The notes under the pieces: generated by a model
What the model was told of the DNA's origin: nothing
What the model saw: the letters and a program-made list of their open reading frames with translations, nothing else
Databases searched by the model: none
Assembly: GCF_008831545.1 (NCBI RefSeq)
Contig: NZ_CP044523.1
Span: forward strand, 930,001 to 994,000
DNA length: 64,000 nucleotides
Direction of reading: 5' to 3'
From: Halorussus halophilus
Lineage (GTDB): Archaea; Halobacteriota; Halobacteria; Halobacteriales; Haladaptataceae
Part shown: positions 19,271-61,631 of the stretch, piece by piece
Numbering within the stretch: the first letter of the stretch is position 1
Layout: each line of letters opens with the position of its first letter
Program-made: the position numbers and the translations under genes

Positions 19271-21529
<2,259 letters not shown>

Positions 21530-21621
21530 GCAGGGAGCACTCGTGTGAGGGAGTAAAAAACTACCCGAACCCGTCGAATTTGACATCGACAAACGTCGAA
21601 ATCAGGTCAGGTCGAGTCAGG

Positions 21622-22728
21622 TCAAACATCTTTGACTAGTACGTCGGCGCGTGCCAACGCCACGTCGTAGTCCCATCCGTCCACGACGGTCGTCGGCCAC
21701 TGTCCGGTCGTCGTCAGCACTTCGAGGCCGTCCTCGGTCACCAACACCGTGTCCTCGCTCTTGGCACCCTGGACGGTGGGATTCCACGCGTAGGCCATCG
21801 GCGTCGTCACCTCGGCGTCGCTTTCGGGTGTCGCCACCCATTCGCGTCCGGCGAACCCGGCGGCACCACCCTGATGGTGGTTCTGCCACTCGTCGGCGTA
21901 GCCGACGTGTTCGTAGGCGGCCTGAATCGCGTCGAAGACGTCTCCGGCGTCGCCGCCGAGGTCGGCGACTGCTTGCGTCGCGCCGAGTGCGGTCATCTCC
22001 ACGATGCGGGCGGCTTGGTGCTTGTCGCCGAGTTCGTTCAGTTCGGGCGCGGGGTTCTCCTCTTCACCGAAGGCGACCGTCCGGGTCATACTGGCGTGCA
22101 GGCCGTCGCGCTCTGCGGTCACGGACACCAGCGCGTAGTCGCCCAGCTCGCGGTGCTTCGGCGTGTAGTGGCGGTACTGCTGGGCGCGCTCGGACCCACC
22201 GACGAGTGCGACTGGCGCTTCGATGCCGCGTGCGGAGAGCGCGACTCGTAGTGCGGAGGCGACCTCCGACTCCACGTCGCCGGGTTGGAGTTCCCGGCAG
22301 ACCGCCTCGACTGCTTCGGCAGTGTCGTAGCCCAAATCGCGGTAGTTCTCGATATCCTCCTCGGTGAGTGGCTGGCGGAGCGGCGAGGCGTCCACAGTGT
22401 CGAAGTTGGGCACGTCGAAGTCTGCGGCCGCGGGTCGGGGGCTCTGGTCGGCGACTGCTTCCGCGAGCGACGAGTCGTACCACTGAAACTCGGTCACTGT
22501 CACGTCGTCGTCCAACTCTTCCTCGCGGAGTCGGTCGGCTTCGATGTTGTTCGTGACGACGGAGAGTTCATCGCCGTCGTAGCCCACTGCGGCGACCCCC
22601 ACGTCGCCCTCGCGGTCTACCACGTTGTCGCCGCCGGTCAACCACGTGAAGGAGTTCGGGCGCGCGAACCAGACGGCTTCGAGGTCGTGTTGGTCGAGGT
22701 AGATGTCGAGGCGTTCCTGCTTGGTCAT
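21622..22728 (-). CDS. M24 (creatinase/aminopeptidase fold) family protein, degenerate metal site
   Basis: 368 residues. The N-terminal creatinase domain (MTKQERLDIYLDQHDLEAVW...ARPNSFTWLTGGDN) and the pita-bread fold are recognisable. The usual metal ligands are not. Where active enzymes have an Asp in VxVDxGA and another in SDxTRT, this one reads LVSVTAERDG and ASMTRT. The His pair survives as HHQGGAAG, and the usual Glu of the VxEPG motif is replaced in AYAWNPTVQGAKSED. It is therefore probably a binding or scaffold protein rather than a metallopeptidase. The arrangement is 92 bases upstream of the malic enzyme gene on the same strand. Confidence 0.8.
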   Translation of the reverse strand: MTKQERLDIYLDQHDLEAVWFARPNSFTWLTGGDNVVDREGDVGVAAVGYDGDELSVVTNNIEADRLREEELDDDVTVTEFQWYDSSLAEAVADQSPRPAAADFDVPNFDTVDASPLRQPLTEEDIENYRDLGYDTAEAVEAVCRELQPGDVESEVASALRVALSARGIEAPVALVGGSERAQQYRHYTPKHRELGDYALVSVTAERDGLHASMTRTVAFGEEENPAPELNELGDKHQAARIVEMTALGATQAVADLGGDAGDVFDAIQAAYEHVGYADEWQNHHQGGAAGFAGREWVATPESDAEVTTPMAYAWNPTVQGAKSEDTVLVTEDGLEVLTTTGQWPTTVVDGWDYDVALARADVLVKDV

Positions 22729-23442
22729 TACTCGTGGATTGTTCGGGAAATCCTTGAAGGACTTGGATTCGGGAAGTGAGTTTGGAGTGGTGTTTGTGAC
22801 GGAGAAGACCGGATGATGGGATGGCCGCTGGCAGACAGAACGCAGACAGCGAGACGCTATCTACTCCCGAGACAAAGCCGCGCCCTCGCTCCACCTCGCT
22901 TACCGCCGGACGCCACAGAGTGGCGTCCAAACGCTCGGTTCCGGTCGCCCGCTCCCACCAAGGGAAGCCCTCGTCGCTCGCTTCACTCACTCCTCGCCCT
23001 TCATCCACCGGCAGAGGTTGCTCTGCCGAGCCTTCGTTCGCTCCGCTCACGAAGACACCAAGGCAGGTTCCCCATTTCTCCCCGCTCGCGCCATCCGGCG
23101 CGACCGCATCCTGTGGCCGATGTCACAATCCACGAAACGGAACCTAACCAACCGCCCGAAACGCGAATTCTCACTGGAATCAGTCCGCGCGGCCGCAGAG
23201 CGGCCGCGCTCCTGCGGATAGCCGGGAGCGGCGAAGCGAGACGTGGAACGACCGAAGGGAGTAAGCACCGAGTGAGGGCGCGGCTTTACACGGCTTCAGT
23301 CCGCTTCGAACTATCTTCGTCTGCGGTTACAGTTGAGGTTCCAACGAACTCCCGAACGCCCCCGAGTTCCGATTCCCAGATTCTGAAGACGGTCGGACAG
23401 ACCTAAGTACGAACGCCCGATAGCTCCACTAAGAGCAAACAC
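22729..23442. other. Gene-free hairpin-rich region
   Basis: 714 bases between the divergently transcribed M24-like and heme A synthase genes. No reading frame has haloarchaeal protein character. The region from 22874 to 23287 is packed with perfect hairpins and is bounded by imperfect inverted repeats (separate entries). The last 60 bases hold the promoter of the heme A synthase gene (gacctaagtacg near 23400). Confidence 0.6.
22874..23287. repeat. Hairpin island bounded by 18-bp inverted repeats
   Basis: Outer arms aaagccgcgccctcgctc (22874-22891) and its inverted copy (23270-23287) match at 17 of 18 bases. Inside are at least five hairpins: 22908-22928 (9-bp arms, AGA loop), 23009-23028 (8-bp arms, GTTG loop), 23032-23054 (6-bp arms), 23086-23103 (7-bp arms, ATCC loop) and 23187-23209 (10-bp arms GCGCGGCCGC, AGA loop). 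This could be a small non-autonomous mobile element, a structured RNA or a decayed gene. No target-site duplication was seen. Confidence 0.6.
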
Positions 23443-23919
23443 ATGGTTCGCTATCGCCACCTCGCCGCCGTGACTACGGGGCTGACGTTCGCGCTCATCC
23501 TGCTCGGCGTCTACACCGCCGCGATGGGTGCCGGGCTGTCCTGTTCGGCCCAGTGGCCCCTCTGTGACGGCGGGGTCCTCCCCCAGACGTTCCCCAGTTT
23601 CGTCGAGTGGTTCCACCGACTGATTGCGATGATAACCGGCTTCTTCATCATCGGCACGACTGTCGGCGCGTGGAAGTACCACAGCGAGAAGCGCATCCGC
23701 GGGGCCGCTACGCTCGCACTGGCCGTGACCCCACTGCAAATCGTCCTCGGTGGTGCGACCGTTCTCGTCTACACGCCGCTCGTGCAGGTGGCCCACCACG
23801 CCGCCGCGATGATAATCTTCGGGGCGCTCGTGGCGACGACGCTCTGGTCCTACGAGGCCGAAACTGCCACTGGTGGTTCCAGTGCCGACGCGGCCGCGGG
23901 CTATCCCAGCGACGATTGA
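23443..23919 (+). CDS. ctaA: Half-size heme A synthase (CtaA/Cox15 family)
   Basis: 158 residues with four membrane helices instead of the usual eight. The start GLTFALILLGVYTAAMGAGLSCSAQWPLCDGG has the conserved Cys pair of the first external loop. EWFHRLIAMITG and LVQVAHHAAAMIIFG carry heme-ligand or catalytic His residues. Four-helix members of this family are known in some archaea and are regarded as an ancestral type that must dimerise. It should convert heme O to heme A for terminal oxidases. No oxidase gene is adjacent. A polar tail of 20 residues follows the last helix. Confidence 0.85.
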   Translation: MVRYRHLAAVTTGLTFALILLGVYTAAMGAGLSCSAQWPLCDGGVLPQTFPSFVEWFHRLIAMITGFFIIGTTVGAWKYHSEKRIRGAATLALAVTPLQIVLGGATVLVYTPLVQVAHHAAAMIIFGALVATTLWSYEAETATGGSSADAAAGYPSDD

Positions 23920-24003
23920 CTGGCCAGCGGCGACTGACAAACCAACGACGACTGAACCTGTTTTTAGCTCGTCTATCTTCCGAATTTGGACGTTTCACGC
24001 CAA

Positions 24004-24018
24004 CTACTATATACTATC
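24004..24018 (+). promoter_or_regulatory. TATA box of first amino-acid binding-protein gene
   Basis: The sequence actatatactatcag is centred about 36 bases before ATG 24047. Confidence 0.5.
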
Positions 24019-24046
24019 AGATTGCACGTAGCCGCGGGGGAAACAC

Positions 24047-24967
24047 ATGGACATCGACAGGCGGACGTTTGTCAAGGGGAGCGCAGGAGCTATCGGCGGA
24101 CTCACGGTCGGCGGACTCGTGAGCGCACAAGACGGCGAAGTAGTTCGAATCGGGTCGGACATTCCGTACAAGCCGTTCGAGTATCGCAATCAGGATGGTG
24201 AAATCGTCGGTTTCGACGTAGACCTCGCTGGGGCGATTTTCGAGGAACTGGGGACGGACTACGAGTTCGTCCAGACGGGCTTCGACACCATCATCCCGAG
24301 TCTGAACAACGGGAACTTCCGCATCATCATGTCCGCGATGACCATCAACGACGAGCGCGCGGAGAAAGTGGATTTCTCGGACCCGTACTTCGTCGCCTAC
24401 CAGACTGTGGCGATTTTGCAGGGGAGCGACATCAGTTCGGTCGAAGACCTGCGCGGCCAGACAGTCGCCGTCCAGAAAGGGACGACTGGCGAAGGAGCGG
24501 CGGAGGACCTGCAAGAGCAGTTCGGTGGCGACCTGACCATCGACAGCTACGACCAGATTACGGGTGCGTTCAATGCGCTTCTGAACAACCAAGCTGTCGC
24601 AGTCATCAACGACAACACGGTCAACGTGCAGTTCACGCAGGACAACGAGAATATCGTGCTGTTGGAGGGCGAGGGTGTTGCCGCAGAGCGAGGTGAAGCC
24701 GCGCCGGATTACCTAACGCTGACCGTCGAGGAGTACGGCATCGCGTTCCGGCAGGACGACGACGAGTTCCGCCAGCAGGTCAACGAGGCACTAACTGCGG
24801 TCATCGAGAGCGGTCGGTACGAAGAAATCTACCGCGAGTATTTCACGGGTGATCCGCCAGCGTCTATCTTGGAACGTGGTCAGGTGACCACGATGGGCGG
24901 AACCACGACAGTGAGCAACGGAACCGCGACCAATGAAACCGAGTCGGGAACTACCGAGGGTAGCTAA
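24047..24967 (+). CDS. Polar amino-acid-type ABC substrate-binding protein (Tat, no lipobox)
   Basis: 306 residues. The Tat signal (IDRRTFVKGSAGAIGGLTVGG) ends in GLVSAQDG with no Cys, so the protein may be released or anchored otherwise. The family 3 solute-binding fold runs from VVRIGSDIPYKPFEYRNQDG to about residue 255: GFDVDLAGAIFEELG, RIIMSAMTINDERAEKVDFSDPY, VAVQKGTTGE. A Thr/Ser-rich tail of about 45 residues (TTTVSNGTATNETESGTTEG) follows. It is a close tandem paralogue of the next gene, which is a lipoprotein. It likely binds a polar amino acid. No permease lies upstream. Confidence 0.9.
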   Translation: MDIDRRTFVKGSAGAIGGLTVGGLVSAQDGEVVRIGSDIPYKPFEYRNQDGEIVGFDVDLAGAIFEELGTDYEFVQTGFDTIIPSLNNGNFRIIMSAMTINDERAEKVDFSDPYFVAYQTVAILQGSDISSVEDLRGQTVAVQKGTTGEGAAEDLQEQFGGDLTIDSYDQITGAFNALLNNQAVAVINDNTVNVQFTQDNENIVLLEGEGVAAERGEAAPDYLTLTVEEYGIAFRQDDDEFRQQVNEALTAVIESGRYEEIYREYFTGDPPASILERGQVTTMGGTTTVSNGTATNETESGTTEGS

Positions 24968-25108
24968 GTTGCTCAACTGAATTCCGTAATTTTTGCATAT
25001 TGTTTGGGAGAACTGGCTGCCGAAGCCAAAGCGTCAACAGAAGACATTGAACTCTTCCGAATCAAAAAAAGTAAACCTACATAGCCTAAATGAGTGGCTA
25101 TCACACAC

Positions 25109-26017
25109 ATGAAGCGACGAACCTTTGTCAAGGGCAGTGCTGGCATCACCACCGGATTGACGCTCGCAGGCTGTATCGGCGGCGATGGTGGCGGAGAGGG
25201 AGAGAGCACGACGACCGAATCGACGGACACGACTGCGTCGGGAACTTCGGCGGAAGAGACGACCTCCGGCGAAAGTTCGAGCATGGATGGACCAGTCGTC
25301 ATCGGGTCGGACATCCCCTACCCGCCCTTCGAGTACCGCAACAACAGCGGCGAGCTCAAGGGATTCGACGTGGACATCGCGAAGGCGCTCTTCGAAGAGG
25401 AGATGGGCATCGGATACGAGTTCAAGAAGACTGGCTTCGACACCATCATTCCGAGCCTGAACAACGGGAACTTCCGCATCATCATGTCCGCGATGACCAT
25501 CAACGACAAACGTGCCCAGAAGGTGGACTTCTCGGACCCGTACTTCACGGCGTACCAGACCGTCGCAATCCGGAAAGGCGGCGACATCTCCAAACTCGAA
25601 GACCTGAAGGGGACGACGGTCGCGGTCCAGAAGGGGACGACTGGCGAAGGTGCCGCAGAAGGTCTCAAAGAACAGTTTGGCGGTAGCTTGACCATCGACA
25701 GCTACGACCAGATTACGGGCGCGTTCAACGCGCTCCTGAACAATCAGGCCTCCGCGGTCATCAACGACAACACGGTCAACGCGAAGTACGTCAACGAACA
25801 AGACAACGTTGTCTTCCTCAAAGGCGAGGGCGAGGCCGCGAAACAAGGCAAGAACGCGCCGGACTACCTCACTCTCACCGTCGAGGAGTACGGCATCGCG
25901 TTCCGACAGGACGACGACGACTTCAAGAAGAAGGTCAACGAAGCACTCGCGGCAATCAAAGAGAGCGGCAAGTACGACGAAATCTACAACGAGTACTTCG
26001 GCTCCGGCTCGAACTAA
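25109..26017 (+). CDS. Polar amino-acid-type ABC substrate-binding lipoprotein
   Basis: 302 residues from ATG 25109 (MKRRTFVKGSAGITTGLTLAGC), which puts the twin Arg near the N-terminus and a lipobox Cys at residue 22. A Gly/Thr/Ser-rich tether follows, then the family 3 binding fold (VVIGSDIPYPPFEYRNNSGE...MTINDKRAQKVDFSDPYF). Protein identity to the preceding gene is high, and a 51-base stretch (25457-25507) is identical in DNA to 24302-24352. The permease and ATPase genes follow directly, so this is the transporter's main receptor. Ligand is probably a polar amino acid. Confidence 0.93.
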   Translation: MKRRTFVKGSAGITTGLTLAGCIGGDGGGEGESTTTESTDTTASGTSAEETTSGESSSMDGPVVIGSDIPYPPFEYRNNSGELKGFDVDIAKALFEEEMGIGYEFKKTGFDTIIPSLNNGNFRIIMSAMTINDKRAQKVDFSDPYFTAYQTVAIRKGGDISKLEDLKGTTVAVQKGTTGEGAAEGLKEQFGGSLTIDSYDQITGAFNALLNNQASAVINDNTVNAKYVNEQDNVVFLKGEGEAAKQGKNAPDYLTLTVEEYGIAFRQDDDDFKKKVNEALAAIKESGKYDEIYNEYFGSGSN

Positions 26018-61511: not shown

Positions 61512-61597
61512 GATAGTTAAATTTCCTTACATAGCTACGGTTCGCCGAACACTGATAGCCCCAGCGCCGGTCACGTTTTCCCGTACGAAGCAAGACT

Positions 61598-61631
61598 CGT
61601 CAGAGAGTAGCTCTGACGGTGCACATTTTTT
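61598..61631 (+). terminator. Hairpin plus T-run after gcvTH
   Basis: An 8-bp stem CGTCAGAG/CTCTGACG with loop AGTAG (61598-61618) is followed by a gtgcacattttttc U-tract, a terminator-like arrangement about 90 bases after the gcvH stop. A second hairpin GAGGGCC-GAA-GGCCCTC follows at 61647-61663. Confidence 0.55.

Follow-up and report, generated by a model that had tools for sequence, protein, structure and literature searches.

A two-hairpin palindromic unit within a repeat island of Halorussus halophilus is dispersed among haloarchaeal genomes and occurs in frame within genes

Hairpin island between an M24-peptidase gene and a COX15/CtaA-family gene

A hairpin-rich island of 414 bp (22874-23287) was found in a 64,000-nt stretch of Halorussus halophilus DNA (hereafter the window), between the starts of two divergent genes, which encode an M24 peptidase and a COX15/CtaA-family protein (Table 1). 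A preliminary description of this DNA had reported 18-bp outer arms complementary at 17 of 18 bases. These arms were borne out; when the island was shuffled 60 times with dinucleotides preserved, no 18-nt inverted pair matched at more than 15 positions, vs. 17 in the real sequence. At least five hairpins, two with AGA loops, had also been claimed: four are tight and perfect, the fifth has an 11-nt loop, and both AGA loops are present. The four perfect hairpins (arms ≥6 bp, loops 3-8 nt) compare with a shuffle mean of 0.89, and four or more were obtained in 2 of 300 dinucleotide shuffles. In agreement with the claimed absence of a gene, the gene caller placed none across the two-hairpin unit described below; mechanical ORFs do run across the island. 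A tRNA scan of window positions 20000-26000 found none. Among named organisms, the closest relatives of the M24 protein came from Halorussus species.

The two genes are 714 nt apart here and 175-553 nt apart in 15 of the 17 other Halorussus genomes, measured where both genes lay within the fetched stretch (G011 and G013 were left out, having no M24 gene in the flank). Blastn of the island gave no match at any of the 17 other Halorussus loci. Other repeats with a GCTAGC end were seen by eye in the equivalent spacer of G006 and G002, and repeats therefore appear to have entered this spacer on more than one occasion.

Table 1. Features of the island and its neighbours (positions in the window)
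Feature	Position	Strand	Remark
M24-peptidase gene	21622..22728	-	neighbour; without the in-gene insert of its G004 and G005 orthologues
COX15/CtaA-family gene	23443..23919	+	neighbour
Whole repeat island (backbone)	22856..23300	+	ends approximate
Left motif GCTATCTACTCCCGA	22856-22870	+	resembles left end GCTAGCTACTCCCGA of a larger own-genome repeat family
Left 18-bp arm	22874..22891	+	not kept as an end in two own-genome paralogues
Perfect hairpin, 9 bp, AGA loop	22908..22928	+	hairpin scan
Second-repeat segment ..GAAGCCCTC..CGCCCTTCATC	22956..23005	+	common to repeats in other genera
Two-hairpin unit CACCG-H1-CGAGCC-H2-GA, 50 nt	23006..23055	+	top-scoring own-genome R1 match, itself an R1 seed
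Perfect hairpin H1 of unit, 8 bp	23009..23028	+	hairpin scan, covariation
Hairpin H2 of unit, CTTCGT/ACGAAG, 6 bp, 11-nt loop TCGCTCCGCTC	23032..23054	+	sequence, covariation
Backbone part aligned to own-genome paralogue L040 (71%)	23036-23230	+	
Backbone part aligned to own-genome paralogue L039 (73%)	23037..23291	+	
Perfect hairpin, 7 bp	23086..23103	+	hairpin scan
Perfect hairpin, 10 bp, AGA loop	23187..23209	+	hairpin scan
Right 18-bp arm	23270..23287	+	retained in L039

The island is a nested mosaic of repeats

The comparison with its own genome by BLASTN, which the preliminary description had proposed, revealed that the island is not a single copy: matches lay at 16 places. The backbone is common to only two of these (C1:201563, 73%; C1:3561317, 71%); at the rest, the similarity covers the two-hairpin unit and the sequence around it, not the backbone. 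The 414-bp stretch is a mosaic in which a backbone, a segment of a second repeat and one unit of ~50 nt are nested. A unit-free form of the second repeat is present at locus L026, where CTCGCCCTTCATC^CACCAAGG are joined directly; at the island, the 50-nt unit separates CTCGCCCTTCATC from CACCAAGG.

The whole island could instead be a single MITE with the 18-bp inverted repeats as its termini. The complementarity of the arms fits such an element, and so do related-looking longer repeats with inverted ends that were recently amplified in G122 and G174. However, the two own-genome paralogues do not have both arms in common (the right one is kept in L039, the left one in neither), and a single element with terminal inverted repeats is unsupported because these two diverged paralogues do not retain the arms as ends. 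Backbone identity is only 71-73%, the flanking target duplications that had been suggested for checking were not seen at the island arms, and the site has diverged in relatives, hence no exact joint is available. We regard this reading as highly improbable. The earlier term "non-autonomous element" was thus right as to kind and wrong as to unit and ends; MITE-type terminal inverted repeats are also absent from the ends of the two-hairpin unit.

The unit is spread through the haloarchaea and its stems covary

The unit has the consensus C[AG]CCG-H1-CGAGCC-H2-GA and a length of 45-59 nt. A covariance model (R1) was built from 14 copies, the window copy among them. R1 gave at least 103 matches in the own genome (E≤0.01), 20-140 in each of the 18 Halorussus genomes (18/18; E≤1e-3), and matches in at least 100 of 116 genomes of the class (E≤1e-5). 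Across 80 genomes sampled from the phylum, matches among the candidates scored occurred in 14/14 haloarchaea and 0/66 others. All these match numbers are lower bounds and the E-values are rough: 150 of ~3600 candidates per genome were scored in the own-genome and Halorussus scans, and fewer low-scoring candidates per genome in the class and phylum scans. A weak second match in the window (61572-61621, minus strand, E 0.005) is probably due to chance.

Most other own-genome matches place the unit inside a larger repeat that starts with GCTAGCTACTCCCGA and ends with GCGCGCGCC. This family (L041-L052, L110-L179) is ~200-400 nt long and has interchangeable inner hairpins between its GCTAGCTACTCCCGA/GCGCGCGCC ends; L045 and L051 have an alternative left end, GGACGCGGAGAA... 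A further host type, AACCTTTT..CGCTGGCAAAACGTTGATGAAAAT-unit-CACGTCGTCACC, was observed at L033, L034, L157, L158, L162, L164, L170, L173 and L178, and some of its copies lie directly 3′ of a stop codon. G122 and G174 contain nearly identical long repeats (..CACCGAAAGCCCTCG...CGAGGGCTTTCGGTG..) with the unit inside at many sites; these composite loci (L280-L284, L286-L290, L292 and L293) were recently amplified. The long repeats that carry the unit in G122 and G174 have inverted ends. Since the unit lies inside amplified repeats there, it is also able to spread as a passenger.

Covariation was scored on an alignment of 96 rows (94 distinct) fitted to R1's own structure. In H1 and H2 together, 12 of 13 pairs had changed on both sides; 95.1% of stem cells were paired (68.9% after shuffling), and the covariation score was 0.604 (shuffled, 0.163). 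Strong covariation of both stems and conserved linkers are what would be expected of a structured RNA (a small RNA, an mRNA 3′-end stabiliser or a terminator) that has spread by virtue of its function as RNA, and the copies of the host type found shortly 3′ of a stop codon also suit that explanation. However, G-U is not in excess among the non-Watson-Crick stem cells (15 G-T, 32 A-C, 26 other), and Rfam gave no significant match to the island (best E 0.61). The lack of G-T enrichment mildly favours upkeep of the stems at the DNA level.

Insertion outside genes

Comparison of copies and sites showed that the unit is either there in full or missing exactly, as one block. Only 8 of 70 copies have a right flank whose first four bases repeat the unit's own CACC/CGCC; the base that follows the unit is C in 66 of 70. 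Together with exact codon-level joints in orthologues, the 8/70 identity of prefix and right flank points to no general target duplication. Some units are nested within others (L130/L047, L153, L230), and tandem units occur in L029 and L296. At L297 (G096), two adjoining units lie inside an apparent second tRNA 3′ end (GGTTCAAATC^CGCCCCAACCCA). Hairpin-loop targeting was rejected as a general rule, the mean being 3.16 at insertion points and 3.55 at shifted controls. G004 and G015 were compared over 400 kb each, and none of the 14 gaps listed was a clean intergenic unit-free site; the gaps were mostly genes or diverged spacer, and gap B129126 was a clear repeat with a GCTAGC end and no clean joints.

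Near-perfect pairing with few intermediates, and the tandem units in L029 and L296, would also be explained if the hairpins were local replication errors (template switching, quasi-palindrome correction, tandem slippage) and no mobile element existed. However, differences of exactly one unit among scattered, unrelated gene sites require copying and joining, and so do linkers that are conserved class-wide. Replication errors may help to keep the stems perfect, but as the whole explanation they are unlikely.

Gene context was determined for 89 (70 + 19) of the 103 own-genome matches. By flanking genes, 66 intergenic copies (the 70 minus two with no gene on one side and two inside genes) were divided into 17 divergent, 17 convergent and 32 tandem; orientation to genes is therefore as by chance. 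A terminator or promoter role of the unit is unsupported by this distribution, which also stands against the structured-RNA explanation. The window unit sits within an intergenic repeat and most likely has no effect on the genes on either side.

In-frame copies within genes

Copies inside genes are rare in the own genome (2/89, in the DapF and TrpG genes), and 28 relatives' loci checked for an in-gene unit had none (0/28). Of 10 matches in 800 kb of G004 and G015, five were in genes. At E≤1e-3, the in-gene share was 15/35 in G004 and 13/23 in G014, together 28/58, all of these calls depending on a simple codon-score gene caller. Among the 28 in-gene copies, 22 were antisense to the gene in one codon phase with a length that is a multiple of 3, five were sense, and one was antisense and off phase. 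Length was a multiple of 3 in 27 of 28 in-gene copies, vs. 17 of 68 own-genome intergenic ones. The preferred antisense frame was open in 69 of 70 own-genome units and contained a stop in one; 68 of these 70 lie outside called genes. The occurrence of units inside coding frames is further evidence against the structured-RNA explanation, which we consider improbable.

Most in-gene units lengthen the protein by 15-19 residues, which contain a motif like GVSASEASGGSSDESDGV. Hosts scoring above NCBIfam cut-offs included CysRS, HMG-CoA reductase, HisH, BirA, archaeal TrpE, DapF and haloarchaeal anthranilate synthase II (TrpG); two further hosts matched the pantoate kinase and cysteine synthase models with scores below the cut-offs. 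Pfam added an AIR-synthase-domain protein, a zinc dehydrogenase, an M19 dipeptidase and a HAD hydrolase. Compared with the remainder of the host proteins, inserts are rich in Ser/Thr (29% vs. 12%) and poor in hydrophobic residues (10.5% vs. 27.6%). Extra acidity was rejected: D+E amounted to 20.0% in inserts and 19.7% in the remainder. The AlphaFold prediction for TrpG with its insert had a mean pLDDT of 31.8 and was uninformative on the insert fold.

In L296 (G158), three tandem 51-nt units lie in frame in a histidine-kinase-like gene, and kinases of G004 and G014 again contain a related motif, NAVEHGSTSPRSQAHEDAV. The L296 tandem and the sense matches in histidine kinases (L351, L352, L357, L377) may be look-alikes and were set apart.

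Orthologues with and without the insert

Subtraction of 57 nt from the TrpG gene gives the length of the insert-free proteins. Among the 18 other TrpG loci listed, a decayed insert is present in G003 and G009 and none in 14; L276 and L277 are distant paralogues with other sequence at the insert position. Six of 16 other DapF loci (L251-L256) lack the insert, and that of G013 (L252) has the exact unit-free codons. The H1 part is kept in G004, G015 and G017, and the remaining DapF loci have loops of varied length.

Among the Halorussus M24-peptidase loci listed, those of G004 and G005 contain a 45-nt insert. Neither the window gene nor that of G015 (the sister of G004) has the insert, and eight more loci are likewise without it; short insertions of unrelated sequence occur in G003 and G012, and one listed locus is incomplete. 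The inserts of L087/L189 (G004) and L093 (G005) are nearly alike, though the two species are not sisters. A DNA gene tree of COX15/CtaA supported G004 and G015 as sisters and was otherwise weak. Presence of the M24 insert in G004 and G005 and its absence from G015 must involve losses, transfer or reuse of the site.

CysRS of G014 has a 48-nt insert just before TWDSPWSEGRPGWHIECS; in an alignment with the solved chain 8qhp, the insert region falls between residues 199 and 200. A long loop is absent from the own gene (L388) and from L389, L393 and L411, and the remaining 26 CysRS loci listed have a different peptide in the loop. Gain of the unit is suggested by comparison of sequences; its absence from an orthologue could reflect precise loss.

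Nature and possible movement of the unit

The island is best explained as a nest of non-coding, hairpin-rich, transposase-less repeats whose key part is a non-autonomous palindromic element of 45-59 nt resembling the Rickettsia palindromic elements (RPEs). We hold this explanation with good confidence. It is founded on features read from sequence: the unit is dispersed, its fold is conserved, it comes and goes unit-wise, and reading frames are preserved around it.

The unit may be mobilised in trans as a folded DNA strand, by a hairpin-recognising nuclease as candidate mover or during replication. Movement as folded DNA, as proposed here, would account for hairpins that persist although their sequence varies. 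Frame-breaking insertions would presumably be lost through reading-frame selection, so that in-gene copies would need no special targeting. A resident Y1 transposase is unsupported as the driver: copy number was not correlated with PF01797 count (Spearman 0.13, p 0.60). A Y1 match is absent from 8 of 18 Halorussus genomes, one of which has 130 units.

Tentatively, this class-wide mobile palindrome of haloarchaea could continually supply conserved proteins with new peptide loops, and some "halophilic peptide insertions" could stem from it; we rate this possibility below even chances. Under it, insertions in CysRS, TrpE, TrpG, DapF, HMG-CoA reductase, HisH and BirA would be tolerated because the antisense frame is almost always open and encodes a soluble, Ser/Gly-rich peptide. 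If so, the origin of halophile-specific insertions would be testable by orthologues with and without the insert, and, for annotators, a common source would underlie many hairpin islands of haloarchaea and many Ser/Gly-rich insert peptides. No earlier report of the haloarchaeal unit or its in-frame copies was found in the open-licence literature; subscription journals fell largely outside this search, and an earlier description is possible.

Comparison with known systems

Single-strand transposition of the IS200/IS605 type is characterized by hairpin ends and the lack of a target duplication, as is the unit. REP sequences are described with the same two features in an excerpted account (PMC3733652). 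The unit differs from both systems in that no link to a resident Y1 transposase was found.

The SMR, PATE and MITE elements of Haloquadratum walsbyi, as far as the excerpts of their description extend (PMC3119063), include close haloarchaeal parallels. SMR-A and PATE resemble the unit in being short and transposase-less, in causing no target duplication and in nesting in hairpin repeats. However, SMR-A elements as portrayed there (PMC3119063) are ~110 bp long with prominent terminal inverted repeats, whereas the unit has internal hairpins and CACCG/GA ends; they are >95% alike within a type, which is not a rule for the unit; and they target palindromes in PATEs and in IS605-type transposons. 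The unit was found in palindromes of other elements in single nested cases, without enrichment over shifted controls. Unlike SMR-A in the excerpted description, the unit sits in genes too.

Halophilic peptide insertions, in the excerpts cited, are short insertions near the active site of a conserved enzyme, e.g., Halobacterium CysRS (PMC3787623, PMC3940603). The unit is likewise a short insert in a conserved enzyme, CysRS of Halorussus G014. However, most other haloarchaeal CysRS in our comparison have another peptide in the loop, and acidity is not raised in the unit's inserts relative to their host proteins.

In-frame coding palindromic repeats are best known from Rickettsia, whose genes contain RPEs in frame according to excerpted accounts (Ogata 2000, 2002; PMC10969869, PMC3733652). 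The unit differs in length from RPEs as characterized there (45-59 nt vs. ~150 nt, or ~100-150 bp as a range) and in consisting of two hairpins with variable stems; the two are likened by description, not by sequence. Like RPEs in those accounts, the unit is a repeated palindrome that lies outside genes as well as in frame in unrelated conserved genes; both favour one reading frame and encode a conserved peptide, 22 of 28 in-gene units being in one antisense phase. If new peptide loops do arise from the unit, archaea would have a route to new protein loops comparable to that of Rickettsia.
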